Of a DNA stretch of 32,640 bases, positions 8,538 through 27,430 are shown piece by piece. The notes under the pieces were generated by a model. It had not been told where the DNA came from. It saw only the letters and a list, made by a program, of their open reading frames with translations, and made no database searches. How positions within the stretch are numbered: position 1 is the first letter of the stretch; the number at the start of each line of letters is the position of its first letter. Both the position numbers and the translations under genes were made by a program. Source of the DNA: Deltaproteobacteria bacterium (GTDB taxonomy: Bacteria > Myxococcota_A > Polyangia > Haliangiales > Haliangiaceae); the NCBI GenBank assembly GCA_005887925.1, contig VBLP01000358.1, positions 6,688 through 39,327 of the forward strand, given 5' to 3'.

Positions 8538-9900
8538 ATGCCCGCCTCCGACAGCACCACCGCGTGGGTCACCGACCTGTTCCAGTCGTCGGTCGTCCCG
8601 ACCCTCGTCGACTACATCAAGATCCCCAACAAGTCGGTGATGTTCGACCCCGACTGGCGGGCGCACGGCTACATGGACCAGGCGGTCGATCTGTTCGCCG
8701 GCTGGGCGCGCCGCCACCTGCCGGCCGGCGCGACCCTCGAGGTCGTCCGGCTCGGCGAGCGCACGCCGGTGATCTTCATCGACGTCCCCGCGACCGGCGG
8801 CCGCGCGGGCGACACCGTGCTGCTCTACGGCCACCTCGACAAGCAGCCCGAGATGGCCGGATGGCGCGAGGGGCTCGGACCGTGGACCCCGGTGATCGAG
8901 GGCGACAAGCTGTTCGGCCGCGGCAGCGCCGACGACGGCTACGCGATGTTCGCATCGCTCGCCGCGATCAACGCGCTGCGCCGAGACAACATCCCGCACG
9001 CCCGCTGCGTCGTGCTGATCGAGGCCTGCGAGGAGAGCGGCAGCCTCGACCTGCCGGCCTACATCGAGCACCTCGCGCCGCGCATCGGCCAGCTGTCCCT
9101 GGTGATCTGCCTCGACTCGGGCTGCGCCAACTACGACCAGCTGTGGGTGACGACGTCGCTGCGCGGCCTGGTGATCGGCACGCTCGAGGTCTCGCTCCTG
9201 ACCGAGGGCGTCCACTCGGGCGACGGCACCGGCGTGATCGCGGCGAGCGAGCGCGTCGCGCGCCTCCTGATCGACCGGCTCGAGGACAGCCACACCGGCC
9301 AGATCAAGCTCGCCGCGCTGGCCACCGAGATCCCGCGGCAGCGCATCGTGCAGGCCGAGCGCACCGCCCAGGTCATCGGCGACGACACGTTCAGCAAGTT
9401 CCCGCTCCAGCCCGGCGTCCAGCCGGTCCACGGGCGCCGACGGCTGGCCGCCGATCGGCAACGCCGGCAACGTGCTGCGGCCGTACACCCGGCTCAAGCT
9501 GTCGATCCGGATCCCGCCGCGCATCGATCCGGAGGCGGCGGCCGAGGCCGTCAAGCAGCTGCTCGAGAAGGATCCGCCCTACGGCGCCCGGGTCAGCTTC
9601 GGCGACGCGAACCTCAGCGCGGGCTGGGACGCCCCCGAGATGGCGCCGTGGCTCGAGGCCGCGCTCGACGCCGCCTCGCAGCGCCACTTCGGCAAGCCGG
9701 CGATGTACATGGGCGAGGGCGGCACGATCCCGTTCATGTACATGCTGGGCGCGCGGTTCCCCAGGGCGCAGTTCTGCATCACCGGCGTGCTCGGCCCCGG
9801 CTCCAACGCGCACGGCCCCAACGAGTTCCTCCACGTGCCGACCGCGCGCAGGCTCACCCTGTGCGTCGCCGACGTGCTCGGCGAGCACGCCAGGCAGTAG
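8538..9900 (+). pseudogene. M20-family metallopeptidase, frameshifted
   Basis: Zinc-dependent M20 exopeptidase/dipeptidase, about 450 residues, split between two frames. Frame 1 runs from ATG 8538 to ~9430; the rest (from about HGADGWPP) is one frame over, to the TAG at 9898-9900. Metal and catalytic residues are visible: YGHLDKQ (His and Asp ligands), GRGSADDG (bridging Asp), EACEESGS (catalytic Glu pair), CLDSG (Asp) and, after the break, SNAHGPNE (His). Removing one G from GGG at 9432-9434 restores the frame. From memory of the family, a stretch of about 20 residues (LNRTWRP-type) normally sits just here and is absent, so the lesion may be a deletion, not one inserted base. Either sequence error or true inactivation. 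No signal peptide, so cytoplasmic. Weak ribosome site. Confidence 0.85.
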
Positions 9901-11102: not shown

Positions 11103-11589
11103 GCGTCCACCGTAACGCAAGACGCTGGTGAGATCTCTCGACAATTCCAGGATTCCAGCTGTGGCAATGCGCCTACACGCACCGAGACCGACGAAGTTCA
11201 TCCAGGCTGTGATTCACGCAGTCCGGTGCAACCCATGCGCACGAGGATCACGCGCGCGTACGAAGCCTCCGCAGCCTCGGGCAGCGCACCGCGGCGGCCC
11301 GACGCCGCGCACGACATGCGCGACTCGCCGGCCGGGCAACGCATCTTTGCGCATCCGGGTGATCATCAGTGCTGATTCATGACCACTGCGGAGCCGATGT
11401 ATGGAGCAGGGCGAGTTTCGGGAGTGGGCCCTTCCGCAGCGGCGCCGATCGGCATACCGTGGCGCGCGATGTTCCGCGTTTGAGTCCAGCCCGGGCCCGG
11501 CGTATCCAGGGCCCAACACCGCCAGTGATGGCGCGACAGGTGATGCCGGTCTGGCCCCGTGCCCTCCGGATGCACCGTCTGGAGGAGCC
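11103..11589. other. Intergenic region without a recognised gene
   Basis: 487 bases between the divergent M23 peptidase and the flavoprotein operon. Both strands have open frames, but none has a start site with coding-like composition. Two palindromic GGGCCC hexamers (11493-11498 and 11509-11514) with a 10-nt spacer can form a hairpin ~75 bp before the operon start. The 3-prime end carries GGAGGAG (11581-11587) for the next gene. A promoter for the operon should lie here but none was convincing. Confidence 0.55.
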
Positions 11590-12708
11590 ATGACCTTCGA
11601 TCACGAAAAGCTCATCGAACCCATCGCGGCGGTCGCCGCCGCCAACGCCGCCAGCGTCGATGCCGGCCAGTTCCCCACCGAGACGATGCGCGCGCTCGGC
11701 GAGGCCGGCCTGCTCGGCCTGATCAGCGCCGCCGAGGTCGGCGGCCGGGGCCTCGGCCTGCCGGCCGCCGCGGCGGTGGTCGAGCGGCTCGCGCGCGAGT
11801 GCGGGTCGACCGCGATGGTCCTGTGCATGCACTACTGCGCGACCGCCGTGATCGAGGAGCTCGGTCCGCGCGACGTCCGCACCGCGATCGCGGCGGGCAA
11901 GCACCTCACCACGCTCGCGCTGTCGGAGGTCGGCTCGCGCAGCCAGTTCTGGGTGCCGATGTCGACCGCGACTCTCGACGGCAACGACGTCATCCTCACC
12001 GCGCGCAAGAGCTTTGCGACCTCGGCCCACAACGCCGACAGCTACGTGTGGTCGAGCAAGCCGATGACGGGCGGCGAGCTGTCGACCCTGTGGCTGGTGC
12101 CGCGCACGACCGCCGGGGTGCGGGTCGCCGAGGCGGGCTTCGACGGCCTGGGGCTGCGCGGCAACGACTCGACCGCGATCACCGCCGAGAACGCGCGGAT
12201 CCCGGCCACCGCCCGGCTCGGCGAGGACGGCGGCGGGTTCGGGATCATGATGGGCACGGTGCTGCCGTGGTTCAACGTGCTGGCGTCGTCGGTGTCGATC
12301 GGCCTGATGGAGGCCGCGGTCGAGCGGACCTGCGCGCACGCCGCCGGGACCAAGCTGCAGCACGCCGGCACCGCGATCGCCGAGCTGCCGACGGTGCGCG
12401 CCTACATCGCGCGGATGCGGATCAAGACCGACCAGAACAAGGCGCTGCTCGCCGACACGCTCGCCGCGATCACCGGCAAGCGGGCCGACACGCTGGTGCG
12501 CGTGCTCGAGAGCAAGGCGTCCGCCGGCGAGGCCGCCGCGGAGGTCACCGATCTCGCGATGCGCGTGTGCGGCGGCGTGGCGTTCCGCAAGGAGGTCGGC
12601 GTCGAGCGGATCTTCCGCGACGCGCGCGCGGCCCAGGTGATGAGCCCGACCACCGACATCCTCTACGACTTCCTCGGCAAGGCCGTGTGCGGCCTGCCGC
12701 TGTTCTGA
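11590..12708 (+). CDS. Acyl-CoA dehydrogenase-fold flavoprotein
   Basis: 372-aa protein with the acyl-CoA dehydrogenase fold: N-terminal helices (1-110), a middle beta domain with the FAD-contacting ALSEVGSRS segment (~118-126) and a C-terminal four-helix domain (~215-365). Members oxidise acyl thioesters with FAD, but the fold also includes flavin-dependent monooxygenases and N-hydroxylases. The usual catalytic Glu motif near the C-terminus (YEG-type) is not seen; the equivalent stretch reads QVMSPTTDILYDFLGKA, as in the oxygenase-like branch. Dehydrogenase activity is therefore uncertain. The frame is open upstream to 11401, but GGAGGAG directly before the ATG at 11590 fixes the start. First gene of an operon; the next gene begins 2 bp after its stop. 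Confidence 0.9.
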   Translation: MTFDHEKLIEPIAAVAAANAASVDAGQFPTETMRALGEAGLLGLISAAEVGGRGLGLPAAAAVVERLARECGSTAMVLCMHYCATAVIEELGPRDVRTAIAAGKHLTTLALSEVGSRSQFWVPMSTATLDGNDVILTARKSFATSAHNADSYVWSSKPMTGGELSTLWLVPRTTAGVRVAEAGFDGLGLRGNDSTAITAENARIPATARLGEDGGGFGIMMGTVLPWFNVLASSVSIGLMEAAVERTCAHAAGTKLQHAGTAIAELPTVRAYIARMRIKTDQNKALLADTLAAITGKRADTLVRVLESKASAGEAAAEVTDLAMRVCGGVAFRKEVGVERIFRDARAAQVMSPTTDILYDFLGKAVCGLPLF

Positions 12709-12710
12709 CC

Positions 12711-13550
12711 ATGAGCGAGCTCGTCCTCGGCGCCGTTGCCTACGACGCGAAGGTCGTGACGATCTGGGAGGGCTTCAAGGCCTACTTCAACGCGCACGGC
12801 CTGGCGTTCGACTTCGTCCTGTACTCCAACTACGAGCGCCAGGTCGCGGCGCACCTGCGCGGCGACATCGACGTGGCGTGGAACTCGCCGCTGGCGTGGG
12901 TCGACACCAGGCGCGCGGCGCCCGACCGCGCGAAGGCGATCGCGATGCGCGACACCGACCGCGATCTGACGAGCGTGGTGCTGGTGCGCGCCGACGGTGC
13001 CGCGGCCTCGGCCGGCCGGATCGAGACGGTCGCCGACCTCCGCCGGGTCGCGGTCGGCGCGCTCGACTCCCCGCAGGCGACGCTGATCCCGCTGCTCGCG
13101 CTCGCCGAGGCCGGCGTCGGCCGCGGCGTCGAGGCGGTCTGCCACGACGTGCTGGTCGGCAAGCACGGCGATCACATCGGCGGCGAGCGCGACGCGGTCA
13201 AGGCGCTGCTCGCCGGCACGGTCGATGCCGCGTGCGTGATCGACGGCAACCGGCTCGCGTTCGCGCGCGAGGGGCTGTTCGCGCCCGGCCAGCTGCGCGT
13301 GCTGCTGCAGACCGGACCGTACGACCACTGCAACTTCACCGTCCTCGCCGAGACGCCCGCGACCGACGTGCTCCGCGAGCTCCTGCTCGCGATGTCGTAC
13401 GACGATCCTGCCGTGCGCCCGCTGCTCGACATGGAGGGCCTGACGCGCTGGCTGCCCGGCCGGACCTCGGGCTACGCGCTGCTCGAGCGCGCCGTGGGAG
13501 AAACCGAGCCCGGACGCGGCGTGCCCGCGCCGTTCACGCGCGCGCGATGA
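12711..13550 (+). CDS. PhnD/SsuA-type substrate-binding protein lacking a signal peptide
   Basis: 279-aa protein with the periplasmic-binding fold of the PhnD family, whose usual members deliver phosphonate, phosphite or related anions to ABC transporters. Supporting segments: FDFVLYSNYERQVAAHLRG, IDVAWNSPLAW, AMRDTDRDLTSVVLV, DSPQATLIP, GKHGDHIGGERDAV and LPGRTSGYALL. It begins MSELVLGAVAYDAK with no signal sequence or lipobox, and no ABC permease or ATPase gene is nearby, so it probably acts in the cytoplasm as an enzyme subunit or ligand-binding protein instead of a transporter part. It starts 2 bp after the flavoprotein stop and overlaps the next start by 4 bp (ATGA), indicating translational coupling. 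Ligand unknown. Confidence 0.87.
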   Translation: MSELVLGAVAYDAKVVTIWEGFKAYFNAHGLAFDFVLYSNYERQVAAHLRGDIDVAWNSPLAWVDTRRAAPDRAKAIAMRDTDRDLTSVVLVRADGAAASAGRIETVADLRRVAVGALDSPQATLIPLLALAEAGVGRGVEAVCHDVLVGKHGDHIGGERDAVKALLAGTVDAACVIDGNRLAFAREGLFAPGQLRVLLQTGPYDHCNFTVLAETPATDVLRELLLAMSYDDPAVRPLLDMEGLTRWLPGRTSGYALLERAVGETEPGRGVPAPFTRAR

Positions 13551-14680
13551 TCGATCTCGGCGATCTCGGCCTCGACGAGGGCGCGCACCTCTTGATCAAG
13601 CGCGCGCTCGCGCGCGACGGCCGCGCGACCGTGTCGGGCACCTCGCCCAGCCTCGCGATCGATGTGCCCGCGTGGTGTCGCGCCCGCGGCCACGCGATCG
13701 AGGCGGTCTCCGGCGGCTTCGCGATCACCGCCGGGCCGGATCGCTGGCGCGGCGCCGAGCGCGCCGGCGGCGACGTGCCGGTCGCGGACCCGCCGCCGCG
13801 CTGGGGCCTGGCCGCGCGCGGTGCGCTGGTCGAGATCGGCGCCCCCGAGCTCGATCTCCCGCTCGCGATCTGGGCCGACGAGGCCGCCCGACTGTACAGC
13901 CAGGCCGCCGCCGCGCAGTGGGATCCGGCGACCGCGATCCCATGGGACGCGCCGATCGATCACCCCGACGAGGTCGAGGACGCCGTCGTCCAGGTCATGA
14001 CGTACCTGATCGAGAACGAGACCGCGGCGCTGCTGGTCCCGGTGCGCTTCCTCGGCAGGCTCCATCCCCACTTCCGCGAGGTCATGCAGCTGCTGGCGAT
14101 CCAGGCGGCCGACGAGGCCCGCCACATCGAGGTGTTCACCCGGCGCGCCCGCCTGCGCCGCCGCGAGCTCGGGCTGTCGACCGCGAGCGGTCAGGCCTCG
14201 CTCGCGACCTTGTTCGACGAGCCGGACTTCGCGATCGCGAGCTTTCTGCTCGCCGTGCTCGGCGAGGGCAGCTTCCTGGCGCTCCTGTGGTTCCTCCGCG
14301 ACCACGGCCCGGACGCCTGCACGCGCGAGGTCGCCCGGCTCGCCGCGCAGGACGATGCGCGCCACGTCGCATTCGGACTGGCGCACCTCGCACACCAGCT
14401 CGCCCGCGAGCCCGCGCTGCGCGATCGGCTGGTCGCCGCGATCGAGCGCCGGCACGCCGCGCTCGCCCACACCGCCGGCCTCAACGAGGAGGTGTTCGAC
14501 GCGCTGGTCCTGCTCGCCGCAGGCGGCTGGGAGCCGGCGGCGCTGCGCCGCGGCCACGCCGCCGTGATCGCGCTGGTGCGCGAGATGGACGACGGCCGCC
14601 GCCTCCGCCTCGGCCGGCTCGGGTTCGTCCGCGACGACGCCGCCCGGCTGTCGGCGCTTCACACCCGCAACTTCATGTGA
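13547..14680 (+). CDS. TusA-like domain fused to di-iron ferritin-like domain
   Basis: 377-aa, third gene of the operon, overlapping the PhnD-like gene by ATGA. Residues ~1-65 resemble TusA/SirA sulfur-carrier domains, especially LAIDVPAWCRARGHAIEAVSG (continuing into a beta strand), but the CPxP cysteine of true TusA is absent; Cys44 in PAWCR is the only cysteine there. Residues ~105-300 form a ferritin-like four-helix bundle with iron ligands ENE (156-158), DEARHIE (E190, H193), GEG (E240) and DDARH (D270, H273), the pattern of di-iron carboxylate oxidases. Likely role: O2- or metal-dependent oxidation linked to the flavoprotein and binding protein encoded upstream; substrate unknown. Cytoplasmic. 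The last ~80 residues are helical and unassigned. Converges on the 15977-14688 gene with 7 bp between stops. Confidence 0.85.
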   Translation: MIDLGDLGLDEGAHLLIKRALARDGRATVSGTSPSLAIDVPAWCRARGHAIEAVSGGFAITAGPDRWRGAERAGGDVPVADPPPRWGLAARGALVEIGAPELDLPLAIWADEAARLYSQAAAAQWDPATAIPWDAPIDHPDEVEDAVVQVMTYLIENETAALLVPVRFLGRLHPHFREVMQLLAIQAADEARHIEVFTRRARLRRRELGLSTASGQASLATLFDEPDFAIASFLLAVLGEGSFLALLWFLRDHGPDACTREVARLAAQDDARHVAFGLAHLAHQLAREPALRDRLVAAIERRHAALAHTAGLNEEVFDALVLLAAGGWEPAALRRGHAAVIALVREMDDGRRLRLGRLGFVRDDAARLSALHTRNFM

Positions 14681-20007: not shown

Positions 20008-23327
<3,320 letters not shown>

Positions 23328-23331
<4 letters not shown>

Positions 23332-25046: not shown

Positions 25047-27430
25047 TCACTCCATGTCGATCGACCGGAACGCGCCGTGCTCGTCGAGCTGCGTCCCCCA
25101 CACCTTGTGCGACGCCTGGTGCTGCGACATGCCGAAGCTGAGGTTGCCGCCGATCCCCGGATCGAAGTCGCGGATCGCCTCGAACGCGTCGATCAGCTTC
25201 TCGGTGTCGATGTCGCGGCCGGCGCGGCGCACGCCCTCGGCGAACAGCTGGCCGACGATGTAGCCCTCGAGCGACACGAAGTCGGGGTGCTGATCGGGGT
25301 GGAACTTCTTGAGCGCGTCGCGATAGCGCAGGACGCCGGTCGCGCCCGATTCGTAGTGCGGAACGACCTGGGTGACGATGACGCCCTGCGCGTAGGACCG
25401 GCCGAGCTCGAGCAGCTCCTCGGACAGCGCGTTGCTGCCGACGAACGACACGTTGAGCAGCATCGCTTCGATCTTGCGGTCGCGGATCTTCTGGATGAAC
25501 CGCGCAGCGGCCTTGTAGGTCGCGACCATGATGATCGCCCTGACCGGGTGGCGCGGGTGGTAGAGCTCGTTGCCGACTCGCACCGTCGCGCTGTGGTACT
25601 CGGCGATCTTGTTCACCGCGTCGTCGACGTTGAGCGTGTTGCGGTCGTAGCCGACGCGCAGCACCGCGTCATCGCGCCCGTGCCTGCGCAGCATATTGGT
25701 CGCGCCCTCGAAACCGGCGTCGCCGTAGCTGTCGTTCTGGGCGAACACGACTATGACGCGGTCGGGGACCTTCTTGACGTCGAGCAGGTAGTTGACCATC
25801 CTGGCGGTCTCTTCCTCGTAGCTCGCCCGGTAGTTGAGCACGTAGCGATCCGGCGGGTCGCGGCGCAGGATCCCCGAGCCGGTGAACGCGCCGAAGACTC
25901 CTGCACGTTGGCGAGCGCGCGCGATCCCTCGTAGCCGTCGTCGAGCGCGAGCAGCTTGACGCGCCGGCCGTGGATCCCGCCGGCCTCGTTGATCGCGGCG
26001 AACGCGGTCTCGAGCCCGAGCTTCATGCGGTTGCCGAGCTCGCGCGAGGCGCCCGAGAACGCCGCGCTCATCCCGAGCGTGATCGCGTCGCCGGTCACGC
26101 CGCGCACGATGGCCAGGGGCGCCTCGGGCTGCGGCGGGCTGATCGGCAGCGCCGCGACCGCCGCGCCGGCCGCCGCGTGCTTCGAGTCCTCCGCCACCTC
26201 GGGGCCGCGGCCGCGGATCAGCGCGAACGCGCCGATCGAGACCGCCGCGACCACAGCAGCGCCGGCGACGAGCAGCACGCGCATCCGGTTCGATATCGGG
26301 AATGCGGCCGGCCGGGGCAGGTTGTCGCTGGAGAACCCAAGCCCCGAGCCCGAGTTGGCGACCGAGTTCACGGCGACCGGCGTGTCGAACGTGGTGTTCC
26401 CCGACGGGGTCAGCCGCGGATCGCGCAGCGCCGGCAGGGTCGACCCCGGCCCGCCGCCCCTGAGCTGGGCATCAATGATCTGGCGGATCCGCGCCCGCTC
26501 GTCGCCGAACATCTCGGCGACCGCGGTGCCGACATCGCGGTCGCGGCTCGGGGTCATGTTCTGGGTCATGTAGAGCTCGAGATCGGCGCGCAGCGCCTCG
26601 GCGGTCGGATAGCGATCCTCGGGCCGGTGCGCCATCGCCTTCACGCAGATCTGCTGCAGCATGGCCGGCACTTCGGGGGGCAGCTGCGGCACGTCGGCGT
26701 TGCGCCGCAGGATCTCGGCCTCGCTGAGCCCACCCCAGATGTGCTTGCTGGCCAGGATCTCCCACAGCATCACGCCGACCGAGTAGATGTCGGCGCGGCG
26801 ATCGACGCTGCCTCCGGCGATCTGCTCGGGCGCCATGTAGCGCGCCTTGCCCTTGAGCACGCCGACCCGCGTCTGGGTCGCGGAATCGAGGACCTTCGCG
26901 ATCCCGAAGTCGACCAGCTTGACCTGACCGTCGTAGGTGATGAGGATGTTGCTCGGCGTGACGTCGCGATGCACGGTCGCGATCGGCGTGTCGTCGTAGT
27001 CCGCCAGCTCGTGCGCGTAGTGCAGCCCCGACAGCACGCGCGACAGCATCTGGATCTGCATGCCGAGCGGAAACAGCTTGCTGGCCTGGCGCGAGCGGCG
27101 CACCCGCTCGAAGGTCTGGCCTTCGAGATACTCCATCGCGAGGTAGTACCGCCCGTGGTCCTCGCCGACGTCGTAGGTCTGGACGACGTTGGGATGATTG
27201 AGCCGGGCCGCCAGGCGCGCCTCCTCGAGGAACATCCGGCGAAAGTCGTCATCCTCCGCGAGATCGCGCCGCAGCAGCTTGATGACGACGAGTTTCTGAA
27301 AGCCCCCCAGCCCGCCCTGCGTCACCGTCAGATTGATCTCGGACATTCCGCCGCGCCCGATCTCGGCGAGGAAGCGATACTTGCCGAACGATTCGTACGA
27401 GGCGTAACTCTTGTCCGACGCTATGGGCAT
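25047..27430 (-). pseudogene. Ser/Thr kinase fused to branched-chain-amino-acid-type receptor, frameshifted
   Basis: Frame 1 (27430 to ~25898): Ser/Thr kinase domain with GRGGMSEI (25-32), Lys51 (VVIKLL), HRDVTPSN (154-161), DFG (174-176) and YMAPEQ; a Pro/Ser linker; a membrane segment ~383-404 (RMRVLLVAGAAVVAAVSIGA); then an extracytoplasmic Peripla_BP_6 domain from ~440 (GDAITLGMSAAFSGASRELG), broken after ALANVQE. Frame 2 continues with VFGAFTGSGILRRDPPDRYV to the TGA at 25047. Together this is a transmembrane kinase whose external domain is an amino-acid-receptor fold, a plausible ligand-gated kinase. At the break about 30 residues typical of the family (the region before GAFTG) seem absent, so a deletion or assembly loss is likelier than one wrong base. 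GGAAGGGG precedes the ATG by ~8 bp. Confidence 0.83.

Follow-up and report, generated by a model that had tools for sequence, protein, structure and literature searches.

A stretch of 32,640 nucleotides from the deltaproteobacterial contig VBLP01000358.1 (assembly GCA_005887925.1), hereafter the window, carries three consecutive genes on the forward strand, which encode an acyl-CoA-dehydrogenase-fold flavoprotein (gene 1), a protein with the fold of the binding proteins PhnD and PtxB (gene 2), and a fusion of a TusA-like domain to a ferritin-like di-iron oxidase (gene 3). These genes, which I refer to as the cassette, span 11590-14680, with 2 bp between genes 1 and 2 and an overlap of 4 bp between genes 2 and 3. 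A preliminary description of this DNA listed the same genes with the same spacing, and its coordinates and strand are confirmed (Table 1). Here I describe the cassette, its distribution, and its link to selenium metabolism.

A scan of 84,980 species genomes with gene 3 yielded 178 relatives, the best 80 of which were taken as loci. All three genes are found in one cluster in 78 of these 80 loci, so their grouping is not a matter of chance. This also settles in favour of a unit the neighbourhood comparison on which the preliminary description had made its idea of co-translated genes depend. The order of the genes is alike in nearly all loci; in one (L019) gene 3 comes first, and in a few loci the gaps are wider. 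Identity to the proteins of the window ranges from 52 to 81% across Myxococcota, Proteobacteria, Planctomycetota, Acidobacteria and other lineages. Among plasmid records that match gene 1 at E<1e-60, gene 2 is present in three out of three.

Table 1. Positions of the cassette genes and their principal features in the window.
Feature	Coordinates	Strand	Remarks
Shine-Dalgarno-like GGAGG	11581..11585	+	4 nt 5' of the gene 1 ATG; read in the sequence
Gene 1, acyl-CoA-dehydrogenase-fold flavoprotein, 372 aa	11590..12708	+	Rv1679/FadE16 relative; catalytic Glu absent
Phe228, isovaleryl-CoA-dehydrogenase-type catalytic Glu position	12271..12273	+	invariant, 43/43
Ser352, site of the catalytic Glu in ordinary acyl-CoA dehydrogenases	12643..12645	+	A/S/G in the family
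Gene 2, putatively cytoplasmic PhnD/PtxB-fold binding protein, 279 aa	12711..13550	+	Rv1680-like; no signal peptide predicted
H152-G-D-H155...E159-R160 motif, predicted ligand pocket	13164..13190	+	invariant in form I including Miltoncostaea; altered in Rv1680-type
D205-H206-C207 motif	13323..13331	+	replaces the D-Y motif of ATP-binding cassette (ABC)-type binding proteins
Gene 3, TusA-like domain and ferritin-like di-iron (AurF/VlmB/aldehyde-deformylating-oxygenase-type) oxidase, 377 aa	13547..14680	+	
TusA-like N-terminal domain, residues 1-62	13547..13732	+	without the CPxP Cys; Pfam matches and modelled fold
Di-iron helical bundle, residues 141-306	13967..14464	+	E156/E158, E190xxH193, E240, D270xxH273

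The three proteins

Gene 1 matches the N, M and C acyl-CoA dehydrogenase (ACAD) domains of Pfam, and its best NCBIfam family is NF049984 (Rv1679/FadE16), at 389.3 bits against a curated cut-off of 600 that it does not reach. It does not qualify as a catalytic acyl-CoA dehydrogenase, having no Glu at either the YEGT-type or the isovaleryl-type position. The absence of the usual dehydrogenase Glu, already remarked upon for this protein, extends to the whole family as aligned: the residue is Ala, Ser or Gly in 43 of 43 members, and Phe228 occupies the alternative position.

Gene 2 matches Phosphonate-bd (PF12974) at E 1.2e-25, the Rv1680 family of substrate-binding-like proteins (NF049985) at 222.2 bits, under the curated cut-off of 400, and the putative selenate-binding protein family TIGR04553 at 51 bits. 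Foldseek comparison of its predicted structure (pLDDT 93) returned PhnD and PtxB at E 1e-17 to 1e-19, which places it in the PhnD fold, and the nearest solved structures are PhnD, PtxB, HtxB, AioX and ArrX, that is, binders of phosphonate, phosphite, hypophosphite, arsenite and arsenate. Since the first beta strand begins at residue 4, and since sampled members of the family start just a few residues ahead of this conserved strand, no space is left for a signal peptide. In the window, gene 2 is not adjoined by transporter genes (ABC permease or ATPase), such as accompany ABC-transporter phosphonate-binding proteins (PhnD/TIGR01098). The initial picture of a PhnD/SsuA-fold protein without export signal or transporter partners thus stands. 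In two loci (L095 and L096, genomes G178 and G187) a gene 2 relative occurs without gene 3 and without a radical S-adenosylmethionine (SAM) protein of the Rv1681 type, and its HC motif is changed to LR. Selenocysteine (Sec) in the cassette was also considered and rejected: TGA flags in gene 2 matches of other genomes were checked in five, where the aligned protein holds no in-frame TGA, one such codon lying past its end.

Among members of the gene 3 family, 45 of 46 match Pfam AurF and 34 of 46 match Pfam TusA (PF01206; best E 6.2e-6); the protein of the window itself scores 20.6 bits against AurF, under the cut-off of 29.6. The predicted structure (pLDDT 92) comprises a beta-alpha-beta-alpha-beta-beta N-terminal domain followed by a helical bundle, and Foldseek matched it to aldehyde-deformylating oxygenase and VlmB. 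Comparison of the N-terminus with TusA therefore bears out, by family matches and by fold, the sulfur-carrier-like domain first proposed for this protein, and equally its missing CPxP Cys: the corresponding column has no Cys, and C44 (38/46) is the only one noted. The di-iron site described at the outset is likewise conserved, with E156, E158, E190, H193, E240 and H273 invariant in 46 of 46 members, so that the predicted set of iron ligands is complete. Residue 270 (14354-14356) is Asp in the window protein and Glu in the other 45 of the 46 aligned.

Association with selenium genes

The cassette's link to selenium is well supported. Of 193 Polyangia genomes, 113 contain the selenophosphate synthetase SelD; genes 2 and 3 occur together in 32 genomes, every one of which has SelD (32/32), and in none of the 80 genomes that lack it (Fisher 5e-9). 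Counted by genus, the association holds for 18 of 18 Polyangia genera (p 1.5e-5). Outside the Polyangia, SelD was found in 48 of 50 cassette genomes reached through the loci, and of the two exceptions one has SelB and the other is a partial assembly of 1.5 Mb. Among 250 Burkholderiales genomes, 179 have SelD, and all five with a gene 3 match are among them, one of these matches (G326) being a fragment that contains a stop. SelB is missing from about half of the 50 cassette genomes, but in most of these SelB-less genomes the selenouridine (SeU) synthase SelU is present. Thus, the cassette follows SelD and not one particular use of selenium, which rules out a role confined to Sec-containing formate dehydrogenase. 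The genome of the window has SelB and a Sec-type SelD with an in-frame TGA at the catalytic position.

The flanks of the cassette tell a similar story. A direct search found selA, selB, selD or selU within 8 kb flanks in 20 of the 80 loci, and the genera with such neighbours are Variovorax, Pseudacidovorax, Hydrogenophaga, Ideonella, Methyloversatilis, Azoarcus and Peristeroidobacter. Clustering of flank genes, for which gene calling was crude, places the cassette between an upstream selA and a downstream selB in several beta-proteobacterial loci (selA-cassette-selB), and on my reading of the sequences genes for formate dehydrogenase, FdhE and FdhD also lie in sel-flanked loci. An independent case is the actinobacterium Miltoncostaea, in which relatives of the cassette are clustered with selB-selA-selD.

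Two further observations concern individual lineages. The Miltoncostaea oceani plasmid (L088, 521-14844) holds a large selenium cluster with selB-selA-selD, DoxX, CMD, an Rv1681-like radical-SAM protein, an arsenosugar-type glycosyltransferase domain (TIGR04282-like), a flavoprotein, a binding protein, DUF2515 and a second radical SAM/SPASM protein. Nitrosomonas genomes (G197, G204, G215, G225 and others) carry SelU and the cassette, and their SelD match falls within a reading frame of ~730 aa. This is the size expected of published NADH-dehydrogenase-SelD fusions (PMC4561486), the oxidoreductase of which is predicted in another study to make the substrate of SelD (PMC2432076). A 'selB' neighbour that crude clustering had suggested in the Nitrosomonas locus L061 was discarded: the genome has no SelB match, and the gene pair resembles cysN/cysD by length and arrangement.

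Relatives of genes 1 and 2 exist in a second form. NCBIfam names four Mycobacterium tuberculosis families without assigning them a function, namely Rv1678 (NF049986, membrane), Rv1679 (NF049984), Rv1680 (NF049985) and Rv1681 (NF049973, radical SAM). Genes 1 and 2 are adjacent in the three actinobacteria of the plasmid records (Mycolicibacterium, Rhodococcus and Miltoncostaea), and a radical-SAM protein adjoins them in Mycolicibacterium and belongs to their cluster in Miltoncostaea. Only 2 of the 193 Polyangia genomes contain the radical-SAM family (Rv1681/MoeX), and these two are part of a group of four with gene 2 but not gene 3. Because a radical-SAM protein stands in for the TusA-di-iron protein in actinobacteria and in two myxobacterial genomes, I take the third partner to be exchangeable. 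NF049973 has no match in genome G000 at E<=1e-40, and the third gene there is the TusA-di-iron fusion. The Miltoncostaea gene 2 homologue, 58% identical to that of the window, keeps the pocket residues of form I save for K14R and shares its cluster with sel genes, whereas the Rv1680-type proteins of Mycolicibacterium and Rhodococcus differ at residues 155, 160 and 180 and the loci seen there show no selenium context. On these alignments, a gene 2 pocket linked to selenium is a reasonable hypothesis.

Proposed role and alternatives

What might the cassette do with selenium? The reading I prefer, to which I give an even chance, is that the three genes form one functional unit tied to selenium metabolism, most probably an oxygen-using module that supplies selenium from within the cytoplasm. 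There the PhnD-fold protein would hold a small oxyanion or organic compound of selenium, the flavoprotein and the di-iron oxidase would degrade this ligand by oxidation or in another way, and the TusA-like domain would serve as a docking or transfer part that brings selenium to SelD. I place the function at SelD because it is the common point of all selenium uses and because SelB-less cassette genomes mostly have SelU; the identity of the ligand, the reaction chemistry and sequence of steps, the contacts between the proteins and an action upstream of SelD are all inferred. That a radical-SAM enzyme can take the place of the di-iron oxidase suggests a third step in which a C-H or C-Se bond is attacked by radical or oxygen-activating chemistry, with or without O2. 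A more specific version, possible but doubtful, is a dedicated acquisition system that parts selenium from sulfur, in which a selenium-selective binding protein would feed a flavin/di-iron pair (elsewhere flavin/radical-SAM) and the TusA-like domain would deliver to SelD. The preliminary description had proposed a cytoplasmic oxidative system acting on a bound organosulfur, organophosphorus or similar ligand: sequence, fold and clustering agree with a flavin/di-iron system around a PhnD-fold protein, but nothing separately supports an organosulfur or organophosphorus ligand.

Several observations weigh against a role in selenium supply. No sel gene is present in the fetched flanks of 60 of the 80 loci or close to the cassette within the window, where the neighbourhood (M20 and M23 peptidases, uncharacterised genes and, on my reading, ClpA/ClpS-like genes) offers no selenium clue. 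SelD is frequent anyway, being present in 58% of the sampled Polyangia and 72% of the sampled Burkholderiales; taken by itself, co-occurrence is thus evidence of moderate strength, and the neighbourhood evidence weighs as much. The genomes are related and not independent, many are metagenome assemblies, and the 50-genome set goes back to loci selected for carrying the cassette. One clear exception in Polyangia (G047; L099, 5099-6295) has a TusA-di-iron gene on its own, with genes 1 and 2 absent and no match to SelD, SelB or SelU. G192 has Rv1679/Rv1680-type relatives and no SelD match, and M. tuberculosis, which has Rv1679 and Rv1680, is not known to have SelD. TIGR04553, the family of the putative selenate ABC binding protein, shows no enrichment in cassette genomes (9/42 vs 9/38), which also rules out the putative selenate importer as an obligate partner. 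Finally, G065 (L109 and L106; 96% complete) combines a complete cassette and a Cys-type SelD with no match to SelB or SelU, and is a candidate for an orphan SelD using the cassette.

This last genome fits at least as well the main rival, a third selenium use downstream of SelD, in which the cassette would consume selenophosphate for an unknown selenium metabolite or cofactor, as SenA/SenB do for selenoneine. Such a role would give an identical co-occurrence with SelD and an identical sel neighbourhood, and the set of a flavoprotein, an oxidase and a binding-fold protein resembles a small biosynthetic set; enzymes with a binding-protein fold exist (MqnA, THI5), and the Miltoncostaea cluster includes sugar-transferase-like genes. 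However, the great majority of cassette genomes also hold Sec or SeU machinery, orphan SelD with the cassette is rare and mostly confined to incomplete assemblies, and a position between selA and selB fits a general role in the Sec pathway, so I consider a third use rather unlikely. Somewhat less probable still is a selenium-independent oxidative pathway acting on a small sulfur, phosphorus or arsenic compound, its link to selenium arising indirectly through lifestyle or horizontally transferred islands. It would explain why the solved structures nearest in fold to gene 2 belong to proteins that bind phosphite, phosphonate, arsenite and arsenate, why Rv1679-Rv1681-type relatives are found outside a selenium context, and why some Nitrosomonas flanks hold what I read as sulfate-assimilation-like genes, but repeated insertion by sel genes in several unrelated lineages and the absence of the complete cassette from all 80 SelD-less Polyangia genomes are hard to put down to chance. 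Lastly, the cassette might protect aerobic selenium users by oxidising or trapping toxic or oxygen-labile reduced selenium (selenide, methylselenol). By family precedent the di-iron oxidase would need oxygen, and many carriers belong to groups generally regarded as aerobic, yet protection leaves unexplained both the radical-SAM replacement and the substrate-binding fold, and seems improbable.

No riboswitch, other Rfam RNA or tRNA was found in the window, nor any sigma-70 promoter; a weak terminator-like site falls within gene 3. There is no PADLOC match to a defence system, and a small upstream gene common to the loci was discounted, the short open reading frames looking like spurious frames. 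An M20-type peptidase gene (8538-9900, +) is apparently split, its N-terminal part lying in one frame to ~9440 and its presumed C-terminal part (9472-9900) in another, which points to a frameshift or a sequencing error near 9440-9470. Farther downstream, one protein (20008-23331, +) joins a full DUF2126 putative amidoligase to a transglutaminase-like domain, and another (25754-27430, -) has a Ser/Thr protein kinase domain followed by a periplasmic-binding-protein-like domain.

Comparison with known systems

No paper describing the three-gene set was found, and the selenium genomics texts, in the passages searched, are silent on it (PMC5322559, PMC5029168, PMC2432076, PMC9312934, PMC13188914), while the literature found on Rv1681/MoeX concerns the diagnosis of tuberculosis or vaccines. 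The earlier statement that the set belongs to no characterised pathway thus holds for the papers searched, but needs qualifying in that Rv1678-Rv1681 exist as named, uncharacterised NCBIfam families. How trace selenium is separated from abundant sulfur and delivered to SelD is an open question, for which the cassette offers a direct and testable candidate. According to a recent study of Methanococcus, a dedicated selenium transporter has yet to be recognised in any organism, and the deletions made there revealed none; in the same organism tusAD transcripts rose by 4.5 log2 under selenium depletion (PMC11097638).

The individual proteins each have known counterparts. Gene 1 shares the whole ACAD fold with short-chain acyl-CoA dehydrogenases, 3-sulfinopropanoyl-CoA desulfinase, SfnB and DszC, but lacks the catalytic Glu at both known positions and falls far under every named equivalog cut-off. 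Gene 2 shares its fold and general cleft with the oxyanion-binding proteins PhnD, PtxB, HtxB, AioX and ArrX and with the putative selenate binding protein of TIGR04553; unlike these, it has no predicted signal peptide and no adjacent transporter genes, and it has DSPQ in place of the STS ligand motif and DHC in place of DY. Gene 3 has the ferritin-like di-iron bundle of the AurF/VlmB N-oxygenases, aldehyde-deformylating oxygenase and R2lox, with the ligands E, ExxH, E and E/DxxH in common, but differs from them in its TusA-like fusion, and the window protein falls under the Pfam AurF cut-off.

As regards selenium, one study links a SirA/TusA-like protein to SelD (PMC2432076). The YedF/SirA-like selenium proteins and YedE resemble the cassette in that a TusA/SirA-like domain is tied to SelD across several uses of selenium, but in YedF-type SirA-like proteins the domain pairs with a DsrE-like or DUF3343 domain and not with a di-iron oxidase, and no flavoprotein or binding protein is described alongside (PMC2432076, PMC5322559). 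The closest relative already known is the Rv1679/Rv1680 pair plus a third enzyme, itself without known function. Rv1678-Rv1681 include the nearest NCBIfam families to genes 1 and 2 (389 and 222 bits), and the pair is adjacent in actinobacterial relatives, but the scores lie under the cut-offs of 600 and 400 and the third partner there is a radical-SAM protein in place of the TusA-di-iron fusion. The cassette thereby provides a first comparative clue to these uncharacterised genes of M. tuberculosis, and an example of a di-iron oxidase and a radical-SAM protein exchanged for one another within an otherwise constant gene set.

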